A stretch of 62,568 nt of DNA. Origin: an uncultured Pelagibacteraceae bacterium. GTDB taxonomy: Bacteria; Pseudomonadota; Alphaproteobacteria; Pelagibacterales; Pelagibacteraceae. Each line of letters opens with the position of its first letter. Within the stretch, counting starts at the first letter, position 1. This document shows, piece by piece, positions 6,994 through 44,580 of this stretch. The notes beneath the pieces are model-generated. The model had not been told where the DNA came from. It searched no databases and saw nothing but the letters and a program-made list of their open reading frames with translations. The DNA lies in contig CACHZG010000005.1 of the NCBI GenBank assembly GCA_902584365.1, positions 1 through 62,568 of the forward strand, in the 5' to 3' direction. Both the position numbers and the translations under genes were made by a program.

Positions 6994-8010
6994 ATGAAAA
7001 AAAACATAACACTGGGAAAAAACATCCACTTTCCAGTGTTATTAAATGAGGTTGAAAATCTTTGCTCAAATATTCAAAAAGGTGAATTCTTAGATTGTAC
7101 TTTTGGTGGCGGAGGATACTCCCTTCAATTATTGAAAAAAACAAACTCTAAAATTGATGCAGTCGATAGAGATAAAAATATAAAATATATAGCTGACGAG
7201 ATAAAAAAAAAATTTCCTGACAGATTTACTTTTTTTAATCAAAAATTTAGCCAGATAGGTAAAACCTTTAAAGATAAAAAATTTGACGTGATAATTTTTG
7301 ATTTAGGATTATCTTCATATCAATTAAAAGATTTGAGTAGAGGTTTTTCCTTTAAATCCAAAGATAAGCTTAATATGAACATGGGATTGAGTGATTTAAA
7401 TTTAATAGAGGTGATAAACTCAATTACTGAAAAAAATTTAAAATTAGTTATCAAAGTTTTTGGTGAAGAAAAGGAAGCGGGCATTATAGCAAAAAATATT
7501 ATCAAGAGTAGAACACTAGATAAAATATCGAACACTGGAGATTTAGTCGAAATAATAAAAAAAAGCAAAAAAAAGAATTTTAATAATAAAATTGATGTTT
7601 GTACAAAAACCTTTCAAGCATTGAGAATGTTAATAAATCAAGAAATTTCAGAACTTTTGAATGGGTTGGTTGAGGCAACTAAACTATTAAAAATTGGGGG
7701 AAAAATTTTGGTTATTTCTTTTCATTCCATCGAAGATAAAATTGTAAAATATTTTTTTAAAAATTTCTCATTAAATAAGCCAAATTCATCTAGATATTTA
7801 CCAAGAAATAACAAAAAAAATAATATTTTATTCGAAAAATTCAATAAAATAATAAAACCATCCCTAAAAGAGATAAAAACAAATCCACCTTCTAGGTCCG
7901 CTAGATTACGTTATGCAATTAGATGTAAAAATAATTTTGAATTTCCTAACGAATTTTTTGAAAATTTTAAAGATTACATAAATTTAGAGAAAGTCTATGC
8001 TAAAAAGTAA
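6994..8010 (+). CDS. rsmH: 16S rRNA (cytosine1402-N4)-methyltransferase RsmH (MraW)
   Basis: RsmH N4-methylates C1402 of 16S rRNA near the ribosomal P site using S-adenosylmethionine. Family motifs are present: HFPVLLNEV at the N-terminus, the SAM loop DCTFGGGGYS, FDLGLSSYQL followed by RGFSF, FQALRMLINQE, VISFHSIEDKIVK and the C-terminal PSRSARLRYAIR. From ATG 6994 the protein has 338 residues, close to family length. A TTG at 6979 would add five residues and cannot be excluded. It lies 18 bases after ftsZ and overlaps ftsL by 14 bases. Confidence 0.96.
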   Translation: MKKNITLGKNIHFPVLLNEVENLCSNIQKGEFLDCTFGGGGYSLQLLKKTNSKIDAVDRDKNIKYIADEIKKKFPDRFTFFNQKFSQIGKTFKDKKFDVIIFDLGLSSYQLKDLSRGFSFKSKDKLNMNMGLSDLNLIEVINSITEKNLKLVIKVFGEEKEAGIIAKNIIKSRTLDKISNTGDLVEIIKKSKKKNFNNKIDVCTKTFQALRMLINQEISELLNGLVEATKLLKIGGKILVISFHSIEDKIVKYFFKNFSLNKPNSSRYLPRNNKKNNILFEKFNKIIKPSLKEIKTNPPSRSARLRYAIRCKNNFEFPNEFFENFKDYINLEKVYAKK

Positions 8011-15118: not shown

Positions 15119-16217
15119 AATCAGATTTCTAAATTACTGGAGAAATATAGATAAAAATATATTGATTTGTTTTTTAATTTTATTTTTTTTAGGTCTTTTT
15201 TTCTCATTTTCATCCACATCATCTCTTGCTGGAGAAAGATTAAATAAAGATTATTATTTCTTCTTCACAAAACATTTTATATTTATGACATTTTCAGTTT
15301 TGATAATGATAATAATTTCCTATATAGAATTAGATATTTTAAAAAAAACTATATTTCCTTTATTCGTAATATTCATTTTTTTACTAGTGCTTGTGCCAAT
15401 AATTGGAGTTGAAGTTAAAGGAGCAAAAAGATGGTTAAGTTTTTATTTATTTCGCATTCAACCAATAGAGTTTGTTAAGCCATTATTTGTATTAATGGCA
15501 AGTTTAATTTTGTCCAAAAAAAAAATCAAAAGTCAAAATTTAACTTTTTTTTTTAGTTTTCTATTGCTTTTTTTGATTTCAATCTTTTTAATAACCCAAC
15601 CAGACTTCGGTCAAACTTTTCTTTTATCTGTAACTTGGCTTGCATTAGTTTTTGTATCTGGCATTAATCTCGTTTCAATTTTTTTTCTTATATTAATTAT
15701 CCTCTCCACTCTCTCTGTTTTAATTTACATCCTTCCAAGTAAGTTTGGATATATAATTAATCGAATAAGTACCTTTTTGGACCCGACAAAAGGAGATAAT
15801 TTTCAGACTGACAAAGCTTTAGACGCAATTAAACTTGGAGGATTAAAAGGACAGGGAATGGGTGAAGGAGTTTTAAAAGAAAGGGTGCCAGAAGCTCACA
15901 CAGATTATATTATTGCCGTGATCACAGAAGAGTTTGGATCAATTACTTCAATAATGATAGTTCTTATTTTTTTGTATATTGTTTTCAGAGTAGTTAAAAT
16001 ATGTTTAAAAGAAAATGATGATGAAATAAAAATTTCTTTGTGTGGCTTGTCATCCATTTTAATATTTCAAATGTTTATACATATAGGTGTAAATACAAGC
16101 CTTCTTCCAACCACTGGAATGACACTGCCGTTTTTGAGTTATGGTGGATCATCTTTAATTGGAAGCGCCATTTTAGCTGGCTTTATATTAAATTATACGA
16201 AAAACAGAGTTGACTAA
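15099..16217 (+). CDS. ftsW: SEDS peptidoglycan glycosyltransferase FtsW
   Basis: The 372-aa integral membrane protein of the SEDS family has about ten transmembrane helices. FtsW polymerises lipid II at the septum together with FtsI. Recognisable signatures are the GVEVKGAKRWL loop, RIQPIEFVKPLFVL, TQPDFGQTFLL (containing the essential Asp of the family), HTDYIIAVITEEFG and the C-terminal GMTLPFLSYGGSSL. It is distinguished from RodA by its location between murD and murG; a separate rodA gene starts at 62101. Confidence 0.96.
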   Translation: MQKNIFKIRFLNYWRNIDKNILICFLILFFLGLFFSFSSTSSLAGERLNKDYYFFFTKHFIFMTFSVLIMIIISYIELDILKKTIFPLFVIFIFLLVLVPIIGVEVKGAKRWLSFYLFRIQPIEFVKPLFVLMASLILSKKKIKSQNLTFFFSFLLLFLISIFLITQPDFGQTFLLSVTWLALVFVSGINLVSIFFLILIILSTLSVLIYILPSKFGYIINRISTFLDPTKGDNFQTDKALDAIKLGGLKGQGMGEGVLKERVPEAHTDYIIAVITEEFGSITSIMIVLIFLYIVFRVVKICLKENDDEIKISLCGLSSILIFQMFIHIGVNTSLLPTTGMTLPFLSYGGSSLIGSAILAGFILNYTKNRVD

Positions 16218-42854: not shown

Positions 42855-42879
42855 AGGGGCGTTCTGTTGCCAGGTGCCC
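42855..42879. repeat. tmRNA 3'-end direct repeat, copy 1 (outermost)
   Basis: The 25-bp unit starts AGGGGCGTTCTG and ends GCCAGGTGCCC, identical to copies 2, 4 and 5. It is the mirror (same strand) of the terminal 25 bp of the tmRNA gene at 44205. To its right another 18 bp match copy 2 at 15 positions. To its left there is no similarity, so the left boundary is sharp. Confidence 0.9.
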
Positions 42880-42949: not shown

Positions 42950-42968
42950 TTACGAGTAGATTACGAGT
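42950..42968 (+). repeat. Two TTACGAGT repeats at 11-bp period (possible arm sites, element A)
   Basis: TTACGAGT occurs at 42950-42957 and again at 42961-42968. A third related copy, TACGAGTC, lies at 43276-43283 on the other side of the ORF. Period and placement inside both ends of the unit resemble integrase arm-type sites. Confidence 0.5.
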
Positions 42969-42994
42969 TTAATTTTATGCTAGTATCTTTGAGT

Positions 42995-43258
42995 ATGAAA
43001 AAATTCTTCACAACAGTGTTTTTGCTTTTTGGAACATTATTAATTTTTAATGTACCAGCACATAGTGGCGATAGAAAAAAATGCGCTGATTCTGCAGCAG
43101 AAGCTTATACTGAGTCAGCATCTAGAATATTATATTCAGCCTGTATAAGAGATAATAATATGGTTTTCAAAACTAAAAGACATAAATGTGCTTTAAAAGC
43201 AGCAAAAGCAAAAACAGAATCTGCATCTAGAAGAATATATTCACTTTGTATAAGATAA
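42995..43258 (+). CDS. Small secreted protein with two Cys-bearing 25-aa repeats (cargo of element A)
   Basis: From ATG 42995 the product has 87 residues. A signal peptide covers about 1-24 and ends NVPAHS. The mature part is two similar helical repeats: KKCADSAAEAYTESASRIL... and HKCALKAAKAKTESASRRI.... Each has two Cys separated by 19 residues and shares TESASR and the ending YSxCIR. An internal duplication is clear. The paired Cys could form disulphides in the periplasm. I do not recognise the family. An in-frame ATG at 42977 adds six residues before the signal peptide and is less likely. A hairpin CGACT/AGTCG follows at about 43267-43284. Confidence 0.75.
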   Translation: MKKFFTTVFLLFGTLLIFNVPAHSGDRKKCADSAAEAYTESASRILYSACIRDNNMVFKTKRHKCALKAAKAKTESASRRIYSLCIR

Positions 43259-43339
43259 TTTTAGAACGACTACAGTACGAGTCGCATGGTTGTATTTTTT
43301 AAATATTATTGATACTGCAAACTTAATTTACAATTGAGT

Positions 43340-43364
43340 AGGGGCGTTCTGTTGCCAGGTGCCC
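43340..43364. repeat. tmRNA 3'-end direct repeat, copy 2
   Basis: 25 bp identical to copy 1 and to the tmRNA end. The right flank continues TGAACCTTTTAACGTTAT, 15 of 18 matching copy 1 and more distantly matching the tmRNA interior (AACC and other positions shared). Confidence 0.9.
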
Positions 43365-43426
43365 TGAACCTTTTAACGTTATACAACAATTCTAGATCAT
43401 AAAAAACGGTTATTTCTTTTCTGGGT

Positions 43427-43455
43427 GAGTCCGTATTGAGTCCGCCAGTGAGTCC
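43427..43455 (+). repeat. Three GAGTCC repeats at 11-12 bp period (possible arm sites, element B left)
   Basis: GAGTCC at 43427-43432, 43438-43443 and 43450-43455, just upstream of the 61-aa ORF. They are on one face of the helix. Two more lie at the other end of the unit. Confidence 0.55.
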
Positions 43456-43470
43456 TGTTATATTTTTGAA

Positions 43471-43656
43471 ATGAAAAATTCTTTTGTTAAATTTTTAGTT
43501 GAATTAGTTATTTTTTTAGCTCTAGGGGGAGTCGTTAAGTTTTTGCTTAACGCCGTTAATATAACTAGCGATATTCCATTAATGATCTTTTTTGGGATAG
43601 GGCTTTTTATTTTATTTAGCAGGAATGAAAGTTTTTTTAAAAGTATTGGTGGATAA
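43471..43656 (+). CDS. Small membrane protein, 61 aa (cargo of element B)
   Basis: The product has two hydrophobic helices: about residues 9-27 (LVELVIFLALGGVVKFLL) and 35-50 (IPLMIFFGIGLFILF). Charged ends are MKNSFVK and RNESFFK. No family is recognised and no Shine-Dalgarno is seen (start context TTTTTGAAATG). The overlapping minus-strand frame 43458-43670 is less plausible as a protein. The ORF is the only sizeable one in its unit and lies between the two sets of GAGTCC repeats. Confidence 0.55.
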   Translation: MKNSFVKFLVELVIFLALGGVVKFLLNAVNITSDIPLMIFFGIGLFILFSRNESFFKSIGG

Positions 43657-43671
43657 ATTTCTTTTCTCACT

Positions 43672-43688
43672 GAGTCCTATGTGAGTCC
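43672..43688 (+). repeat. Two GAGTCC repeats at 11-bp period (possible arm sites, element B right)
   Basis: GAGTCC at 43672-43677 and 43683-43688, in the same orientation as the three copies on the other side of the ORF. Confidence 0.55.
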
Positions 43689-43733: not shown

Positions 43734-43756
43734 AGGGGCGTTCTGTTGCCAGGTGC
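43734..43756. repeat. tmRNA 3'-end direct repeat, copy 3 (23 bp)
   Basis: AGGGGCGTTCTG through GCCAGGTGC is identical to the others, but the match ends two bases earlier: the next bases are TTAATA instead of CC. This defines the minimal shared core as 23 bp. Confidence 0.9.
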
Positions 43757-43972
43757 TTAATATTTCTTTTTTTTACCTTTAGTTAATATTTGAGAAATTT
43801 TTTCCCAATTAGCAATTAAACTTGCGATAGAAAAAATTGCTAAGCCGTGATGTGAAGCAAAATCATCAAATTCATGGAGTCCAAGTTCTGCACCTATTTC
43901 TATCAGAGCAGAAAATAATAATATTCCATAAGTGAACAATGCTAATTTAGGATTTTTTTTAAAATCAATCAT
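43757..43972 (-). CDS. Small membrane protein, 71 aa (cargo of element C)
   Basis: The product has a first hydrophobic helix at about residues 10-27 (LALFTYGILLFSALIEIG), a middle stretch with His and Asp (HEFDDFASHHG), a second hydrophobic helix (LAIFSIASLIANW) and a basic tail (TKGKKKKY). No family is recognised. Its reading frame ends exactly where the tmRNA-derived core begins, so the gene and its attachment core are fused end to end. Start at ATG 43972, with no clear Shine-Dalgarno. Confidence 0.6.
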   Translation of the reverse strand: MIDFKKNPKLALFTYGILLFSALIEIGAELGLHEFDDFASHHGLAIFSIASLIANWEKISQILTKGKKKKY

Positions 43973-44005
43973 GCTTGATTATTTATCATGCTTAATTGTA
44001 ATGCA

Positions 44006-44039
44006 AGGGGCGTTCTGTTGCCAGGTGCCCCAAACCCCG
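44006..44039. repeat. tmRNA 3'-end direct repeat, copy 4 (34-bp match)
   Basis: The longest match to the present tmRNA gene: the 25-bp unit plus CAAACCCCG to the right, 34 bp identical to 44205-44238. It then diverges (ATCTT versus TCACT). The left flank is unrelated. Confidence 0.9.
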
Positions 44040-44047
44040 ATCTTATT

Positions 44048-44107
44048 CTAACCAAAGAAATGTAATACTATACCTATTACAATTACTCCAAATACAAACG
44101 TCTCCAT
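44048..44107 (-). CDS. 19-aa hydrophobic micro-ORF (cargo of element D)
   Basis: The ORF encodes METFVFGVIVIGIVLHFFG. It is preceded by AAAGGAG five bases before the ATG, one of the best Shine-Dalgarno sites in the window. The product would be a single membrane helix, like small toxic or regulatory membrane peptides. It has no homology support, but the ribosome site and its position as the only ORF of the unit favour a real gene. Confidence 0.45.
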   Translation of the reverse strand: METFVFGVIVIGIVLHFFG

Positions 44108-44204
44108 ATCAACTCCTTTCACTAATTGATGTGATTCGTCATAATACAATACCTTAATTTAAAAGAAAAAATTTTTAAATTAAATTATTTAATAAATAAC
44201 TAAT

Positions 44205-44229
44205 AGGGGCGTTCTGTTGCCAGGTGCCC
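44205..44229. repeat. tmRNA 3'-end repeat, copy 5 (resident copy inside ssrA)
   Basis: This is the end of the coding piece of the resident tmRNA on the minus strand. The outer bases GGGGC and GCCCC can pair and CTG/CAG pair inside, so the RNA end forms a hairpin. The other four copies lie downstream of the gene in the same orientation. Confidence 0.9.
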
Positions 44230-44462
44230 CAAACCCCGTCACTTAATTAACAAGTTAATTAAGCAGCAAGTGCAAATTTATTATTTGCATTTATAATTAG
44301 CCCGTTACGTCGGAACTATCTCGAACGAAAGAAAAGCCTTTAGACATCCGTCGAGCCTAATTCACCCCCCCTCGAAAATTAATGGTGGAGGTGGTGGGTA
44401 CTGCCCCCACGTCCGCAATGTTTATTACGAATTTCGTTTATCGTTATAGTTGGCAAGCCAAC
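44205..44462 (-). ncRNA. ssrA: Transfer-messenger RNA, circularly permuted (two-piece) form
   Basis: tmRNA rescues stalled ribosomes and tags the product for proteolysis. Reading the minus strand, the acceptor piece comes first (about 44462-44383). It has a T-arm GTGGG/CCCAC with loop GGCAGTA, then CACCTCC-A-CCA. After about 12 bases comes the coding piece, starting GGGGGTG (pairs with CACCTCC, one G-U) and GGCTCGACGG. Its tag frame runs GCA to TAA (44288-44259), peptide ANNKFALAA. GATGT of the coding piece pairs with ACATT of the acceptor piece as helix P2. The tag ending ALAA is the usual protease signal. The permuted order is the alphaproteobacterial type. Exact ends are estimates. Confidence 0.92.
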
Positions 44463-44467
44463 AGTTA

Positions 44468-44496
44468 TTTATATTTCGATATAACAAATATTTCAA
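44468..44496 (-). promoter_or_regulatory. Sigma-70 promoter of tmRNA
   Basis: On the minus strand TTGAAA (44496-44491) is followed by exactly 17 bases and TATAAA (44473-44468). Transcription would begin near 44461, just before the GTTGGC-AA-GCCAAC hairpin at 44449-44462, the first structure of the acceptor piece. Confidence 0.7.
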
Positions 44497-44580
44497 TATT
44501 AATAAGAATTAAGAATAATAGTTTGTTTGAACAAAAAACAACTTACCGATATAAGTGGCATTATTATATATAAAAAATTC

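Follow-up and report, generated by a model that had tools for sequence, protein, structure and literature searches.

The window, as we call the whole 62,568-nucleotide stretch of Pelagibacteraceae DNA analysed here, contains four short units, A to D, strung between five copies of a 23-bp core that reproduces the 3′ end of ssrA, the tmRNA gene. The units are 199–485 bp long, with no recombinase ORF among them. SAR11 bacteria rank among the most abundant marine cells, and their genomes are very small. For gene gain, a cassette only some hundreds of base pairs long that needs just an att region of ~200 bp and the integrase of another element would be a cheap vehicle. We propose, with a probability of roughly three in four, that units A and B are integrase-less cassettes inserted at ssrA, and that the phased repeats inside their ends are putative arm-type sites for a tyrosine integrase acting in trans.

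The ssrA array of the window

The ssrA gene, whose 3′ part is the integration target, was also matched by the Rfam family alpha_tmRNA (44202-44500, 215.9 bits). Like integrative elements, the units are bounded by copies of the ssrA 3′ end and adjoin an intact ssrA gene; an integrase of their own, as integrative elements carry, is absent. The features of the array are collected in Table 1.

Table 1. Features of the ssrA array, in coordinates of the window
Feature	Position	Strand	Remarks
Core copy 1, left border of unit A	42856..42878	+	Identical to the ssrA core
Unit A, left putative arm-type pair TACGAGT / TACGAGT	42951-42957, 42962-42968	+	Class A slot +95
Unit A cargo, small protein	42995..43258	+	Signal-like start, two internal repeats
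Unit A, right putative arm-type pair AACGACT / TACGAGT	43265-43271, 43276-43282	+	Slot -76
Core copy 2, between units A and B	43341..43363	+	
Unit B, left putative arm-type sites, TGAGTCC three times	43426..43455 (43426, 43437, 43449)	+	Class B slot +85
Unit B cargo, 61-aa membrane-like protein	43471..43656	+	From the ORF list
Unit B, right putative arm-type pair, TGAGTCC twice	43671..43688 (43671, 43682)	+	Slot -64
Core copy 3, between units B and C	43735..43757	+	One mismatch
Unit C	43735..44006		71-aa ORF on the minus strand; without arm-type pair
Core copy 4, between units C and D	44007..44029	+	
Unit D	44007..44205		Without arm-type pair
ssrA, permuted (two-piece) tmRNA gene	44168..44478	-	Tag ANNKFALAA; ARAGORN
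Core copy 5, inside ssrA	44206..44228	+	

An earlier note on this DNA had drawn attention to GAGT-containing motifs inside the ends of units A and B. All of them were found on the plus strand where it had placed them: TTACGAGT at 42950 and 42961 and TACGAGTC at 43276 in unit A, and GAGTCC at 43427, 43438, 43450, 43672 and 43683 in unit B, with steps (unit A included) of 11, 11, 12 and 11 bp. A decayed partner had been overlooked: AACGACT at 43265 lies 11 bp before TACGAGT, so the right end of unit A is also paired.

The GAGT letters themselves carry little information. The same note had suggested counting GAGT clusters across the genome against a control; GAGT-N6-8-GAGT occurred 34 times in the 692-kb genome and the reversed pattern 39 times, a count that, taken alone, speaks against the arm-site reading. 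We therefore rejected plain GAGT statistics as evidence, being uninformative genome-wide. Within the window there were six GAGT pairs for 1.67 expected, and one of 100 shuffles reached six. The only two occurrences of GAGTCC-N5-GAGTCC in the genome are those at the left and right ends of unit B.

The cargo proteins of units A and B had no Pfam match and no relative in the fetched loci. For unit A we chose the ATG start; the ORF tool gives the frame from 42977. No phased repeat of the arm type was found in units C and D. Unit C recurs beside other neighbours in G134 (99.6% identity over 249 bp) and G018 (97.7% over 222 bp). Unit D may encode a 19-aa peptide, METFVFGVIVIGIVLHFFG, on the minus strand at 44048-44107; this is our own reading, as the peptide is below the limit of the ORF tool. 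Other units or unit starts of ~127-200 bp similarly seem to us to encode solely a minus-strand membrane peptide of ~16-21 residues (window 44007-44205; L050 7873; L058 10501; L063 11493; L079 280; L204 9050).

Distribution of the cores

Allowing up to two mismatches, at least one copy of the core was found in 45 of 101 genomes, that of the window included, and at least two copies in 27. All 45 belong to the genus of the window, and the remaining 40 genomes, of another family, had none. When a shorter pattern with one mismatch was applied to 60 genomes drawn from the family of the window, 41 matched, representing 11 of 14 genera and several of them with arrays. A tmRNA gene was present in 11 of the 15 loci fetched from this draw and in the three others covered by a later scan, which found it in all seven loci examined.

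The class A left end, defined below, was sought with 21 bases and one mismatch, and was detected in three of 297 genomes of the order, all in the genus of the window. Scanning named genomes for it yielded 19 contigs. Seventeen of them are titled Pelagibacteraceae or Pelagibacterales, and in all 17 the core stands just before the match; two titles say MAG, and the AG-named contigs are presumably single-cell genomes. The Clostridia and Lutibacter contigs with a class A end, like one IMG/VR hit, have no core and were discarded as chance matches.

Mean core mismatches, read outward, were 0.07 at ssrA (n 55), 0.53 at the next core (n 40), then 1.60 (20) and 1.36 (11), and 1.33 (6), 3.50 (4), 2.00 (3) and 3.00 (2) at the outermost positions. 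As the ssrA copy is under selection, only the later outward steps bear on the order of entry. New cassettes would enter beside ssrA and push older ones outward.

Cores also occur at secondary places. L064 and L149 (G059:C1) form a second core array with class B ends, on another contig away from ssrA; it contains tandem paralogues of a ~196-residue protein and ends near a tRNA-Thr gene. In G109:C1, two cores (L190, L191) lie 34 kb apart and far from the ssrA gene of G109. That they flank an ssrA prophage was rejected, given that the ssrA gene of G109 is elsewhere.

The repeats occupy fixed slots beside the core

The main evidence concerning the repeats is their position in relatives. Repeats 11 bp apart sit at about +95 after the left core in class A units and about +85 in class B units, and at about -76 or -64 before the right core. 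On the left-end side, phased 6-mer repeats accompany 41 of 142 cores, and on the right-end side 47 of 142, compared with 13% and 11% of random stretches of the window; most of those beside the cores sit in the fixed slots. Among 81 thinned units of at least 340 bp, an in-slot phased 6-mer repeat with two or more G/C was found at the left end of 29 and the right end of 35. Control slot sets of equal size gave means of 1.67 (left) and 0.71 (right) units, with maxima of 6 and 3; the slots had been picked after inspecting the same loci. In these 81 units, repeats were found at either end in 45, at both ends in 19 and at neither in 36.

The cores delimiting these units were searched with up to five mismatches in 23. 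This search misses the shorter core of the GTACATAGT superfamily described below, and hence some counted units are really two insertions. Units <120 or >3,000 bp were dropped, leaving 99, or 95 after thinning, by which units were removed only where the two ends were >93% alike; those <340 bp were left out of the slot and word counts. Duplicate contigs (L125, L127, L129, L131, L133, L136, L137, L140, L141) and chance hits (L124, L132, L142) were dropped before counting.

As a sequence layout, these units thus have phased, arm-type repeats on both sides of the core, as a lambda-type attP does. The proposal that the motifs are arm-type sites flanking the core holds in this respect: they are direct, spaced by 11–12 bp, located in fixed slots and mostly matched between ends, and the same layout recurs in an ssrA-inserted element of G047 that encodes an integrase-like protein. 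The expectation that the motifs be conserved in homologous units was borne out for their positions but not for their letters.

Repeat words differ between units and mostly agree between ends

The repeated words differ among elements but are mostly shared by both ends of any one element. In class A they read NNCGxxx, where xxx is AGT, ACC, GCA, CCC or TGT. In 16 of the 17 units having a pair on each side, a left triplet matches a right one; permutation, which ignores shared descent, gave a mean of 4.18 and a maximum of 12 in 50,000. To arrive at this set, nine loci with B-type left ends earlier taken as class A were excluded by name, L072 and L193 were added by hand as class A-like, and six of 23 units with class A left ends were dropped for having no pair on one side.

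In class B the words follow the pattern TGxxxxC (TGAGTCC, TGTGATC, TGTGCCC). Of 18 units, 16 have two identical copies at the right end, the word varying between units; the right word recurs at the left end in 13 of the 18 and is absent there in five. The left–right association of TGTGATC is modest (Fisher p 0.022), partly because most class B left ends carry two words. When all units ≥340 bp are taken together, 26 of the 36 left words are found again on the right and 29 of the 40 right words on the left, with a permutation maximum of 13 in both directions, shared descent again being ignored. A first comparison of this kind took in short units with overlapping ends and was repeated without them.

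The GAGT shared by units A and B had been taken as a sign of kinship, and this is not supported, since the two units belong to different word classes. They share these letters because unit A has the AGT variant of one class and unit B the TGAGTCC variant of the other; judged from the words, the common GAGT is a coincidence of two word families. Distinct integrases for units A and B, as had also been suggested, would fit the different words.

An ssrA element with an integrase-like gene

In G047 (L048), an element of 7,569 bp occupies ssrA, from a core variant at 7890 to a core at 15459. Its left end has two GTACATAGT copies (+60, +72), followed by a 409-residue ORF reading toward the core, and its right end three copies, at -80, -68 and -57. 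It also encodes a serine resolvase. Taken alone, the 409-residue protein had no integrase-family match in either Pfam, with the cut-off relaxed to E 1, or PHROGs, at E 0.01. A search of 297 genomes revealed relatives in four others. Alignments spanning most of the length, at 27-36% identity, were obtained for three of these, with 46 invariant columns that include R235, R345 and Y377, which we read as putative catalytic residues. In Pfam at E 1 or better, Phage_int_SAM_5 was matched by three of the four proteins (best 0.00087), PF00589 by two (best 0.0009) and Int_N by one (0.00019). Compared with solved structures, a profile of the four retrieved just the XerC-like 4a8e (E 0.006) and a four-helix bundle (E 0.19). 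The family matches of the relatives and the structure match of the profile make it likely, though not certain, that this divergent protein is a tyrosine integrase.

Pairs of GTACATAGT are present in seven of 387 family genomes, and a reversed control was found in none. The fetched locus includes a tmRNA gene in six of the seven; that of G332 is not on the fetched piece. In G396, three copies precede the ssrA core at -79, -68 and -57, next to 54 residues that share 70% identity with the end of the G047 resolvase. A 1,251-bp integrase-less cassette with one long ORF in G316 (L197) agrees with the left end of the G047 element at 100 positions of its first 105 bp, no difference occurring in the first 67. 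Its right words stand at -68 and -57, and beyond the words the right ends of G316 and G047 are little alike. Words at +60 and +72, with an ORF behind them, also follow a core variant in L204 (G332) and L248 (G192). Other words are seen in related units: the 5.4-kb L049 carries ACTTCGTGTA at both ends and encodes MT-A70 and N6_N4 methyltransferases, and L051 carries ACTTCAATGTA at both ends. Overall, matching words are found at both ends in four of seven GTACATAGT-superfamily units, and on the left only in three.

Iterons, too, consist of direct repeats spaced by about one helical turn. The repeats seen here might accordingly be iterons or packaging signals, bound by the replication initiator or terminase of a helper, with recombination using the core alone; in an excised circle, both repeat sets would indeed come to lie within about 200 bp around the core. 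This is improbable in our view, since the slots are set by the distance from the core on both sides, the same layout in G047 lies between the core and the integrase-like gene, and Pfam recognised no replication gene among the six ORFs of the G047 element that were scanned in addition to the integrase-like gene.

Conserved ends, variable cargo

The DNA of unit A matches other units almost solely over the first 45-147 bp, and at its right end in one or two. Unit B matches others over the first 37-118 bp and the last 40-81 bp, its right end reaching 97.3% identity over 75 bp in G134.

The ORFs of related units include short secreted or membrane-like proteins. Six larger ORFs that we picked gave the Pfam matches Peptidase_S9, MrcB_N with NOV_C, HNH, Exo_endo_phos, SAD_SRA, and DUF3427 with NucS_C. 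A defence library matched two of the four cargo proteins tried, and the other two had no match. Some of the cargo looks like phage defence, namely the MrcB_N/NOV_C, SRA, HNH, NucS-like and DNA methyltransferase proteins. A near-identical signal-like start (MKKLLAIVVLGLL...) precedes otherwise different cargo in L044, L049, L054, L056, L060, L062, L069, L071 and L202, as if swapped between genes.

The cassettes could instead be relics of complete elements that have lost their integrase, passed on along with the chromosome or reshuffled through homologous recombination at the cores, with no help in trans. Of the cores away from ssrA, many are decayed, and some units look fused or lack one end. 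Moreover, in G230 a decayed relative of the G047 protein is found beside and downstream of ssrA, with decayed words and a core-like stretch. Nevertheless, it is common for units of 0.4-2 kb to combine intact, matched ends with near-perfect cores and a cargo that varies from genome to genome, and drift would not keep changed words matched at both ends. We thus regard a relic origin as unlikely.

Search for a possible mover

No integrase was found in the class A or B units examined. PF00589 proteins are encoded in 41 of 61 genomes of the genus, and none of 46 listed places is inside an array. Searching the ORFs of the fetched loci by phmmer with five integrase sequences, and the loci by tblastn with nine, retrieved one array element (L048) and the G230 remnant; such searches miss integrases too distant from the queries. 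In the genus genomes and fetched loci, we found no integrase with TACGxxx or TGxxxxC arms.

The PF00589 protein of the host is mostly the product of one gene, of ~304-318 residues (26 of 30 loci). We set it aside as the mover, as in our reading it is too short to accommodate an arm-binding domain, and a single enzyme would not account for several words. Other tyrosine integrases of the genus (G010, G034, G043, G044, G050) were rejected too, being encoded away from the arrays and, in four of five cases, close to a tRNA gene.

Phages were searched as well. When IMG/VR was scanned for exact copies of the class A and B ends, one scan yielded a single match, within a long viral ORF and with no core, and the other yielded nothing; a phage origin of these ends was discarded. 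Natural right-end/core/left-end junctions had no match by blastn in the phage collection, nor did the G047 integrase-like protein in that collection.

Core scans of IMG/VR returned 8 and 22 contigs, with a tmRNA in 10 of the 18 scanned. On these ten contigs (L033, L034, L038, L040, L161, L165, L169, L170, L171 and L174), the tmRNA gene is permuted, of alphaproteobacterial type, and keeps the core. Phage-borne two-piece tmRNA has been described for marine phages (PMC9004378). The phage contigs L163, L166, L172 and L173 have a core-like stretch followed by CACTAAACCCCG and no tmRNA, possibly an att site or a gene remnant; no integrase was noticed among the ORFs of two of these contigs that were listed.

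A proposed model of cassettes moved by borrowed integrases

In the model that we favour, each cassette would be a minimal attP, composed of the ssrA core preceded by the right-end repeat pair and followed by the two to four repeats of the left end. Other ssrA-targeting integrative elements or phages would supply, in trans, a tyrosine integrase whose arm-binding domain would recognise the repeats as arm-type sites. Made by an element such as that of G047, this integrase would bind an excised cassette at its core and arms and integrate it at ssrA, the core of the cassette restoring the 3′ end of the gene. The different words may reflect dependence on integrases of differing arm specificity, as both ends must fit one protein. 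From the layout and the matched ends we infer this binding, the movement in trans and the integrases that would read class A and class B words; entry beside ssrA is likewise suggested by the outward decay of the cores.

In class A units, the left repeats are followed by TATGCT and then ATG, which in our reading marks a putative promoter. The left sites would overlap the apparent promoter of the first cargo gene, and a borrowed integrase may hence repress the cargo. That the repeats are simply operators of a cargo-gene regulator, unrelated to integration, is very improbable despite the position of the left repeats at the apparent promoter of the first ORF, since the same words recur at the right end, 50-76 bp before the core, and an overlap of arm sites and promoter is itself documented for an integrase gene, that of KplE1 IntS, in the part of PMC2951348 used here.

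On a broader and more tentative view of these borrowed integrases, SAR11 might possess an integron-like cassette system without a resident integrase, in which portable attP sites are tuned to competing ssrA integrases, the cassette population tracks the helpers, and binding at the left arm switches a cargo that is often defence-like. The matched words would provide a readable link between cassette and helper, such that pairs can be found by sequence.

Comparison with known systems

Among the systems described, the islands of Dehalococcoides are similar in that tandem units follow ssrA and are bounded by displaced ssrA ends. Some of them have no integration genes and were called possible cis-mobilizable elements (PMC3146451). 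In contrast with the SAR11 units, which can be <500 bp and whose candidate integrase is of the tyrosine type, these islands involve a serine recombinase and reductive dehalogenase genes, and the part of PMC3146451 used here mentions no arm-type repeats.

Additive flexible genomic islands with tRNA-fragment repeats have been described in Actinomarinales (PMC7771536) and Methylophilaceae (PMC10872708). Like them, the window harbours small, variable cassettes at an RNA gene of a streamlined aquatic bacterium, each marked by a repeat of the gene end. The additive islands, however, target tRNA genes, and arm words, a helper element and the matching of ends are not described in the parts of these two papers used here; the word integrase is absent from the main text of PMC7771536. 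A tycheposon, as presented in the part of PMC10872708 used here, spans 4-200 kb, is located at a tRNA gene and carries cargo together with a tyrosine recombinase. The window units differ from it in having 199-485 bp and no recombinase, and the 7.6-kb G047 element is nearer to it than they are.

CIMEs (PMC3146451) and CALIN (PMC11389934) have no integrase of their own and are movable by that of another element. Like CIMEs, the window units are devoid of integration and transfer genes and keep both att sites. According to the parts of these papers used here, CIMEs move with an adjacent element, by accretion, whereas each SAR11 unit seems to hold a complete attP, and CALIN use attC sites and IntI, whereas the borders of SAR11 units are ssrA copies. 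Short arm sites beside a core are also a feature of lambda-type integrases such as KplE1 IntS (PMC2951348, in the part used here), with the difference that the gene behind the apparent promoter in SAR11 is the cargo rather than the integrase.

Neither SAR11 cassettes at ssrA nor covarying arm words turned up in a word search of the open-access literature, preprints excluded. Published precedents exist for cassettes with tRNA-fragment borders and for ssrA islands devoid of an integrase; what is new here is the covarying arm words and the pairing of a helper with a cassette.
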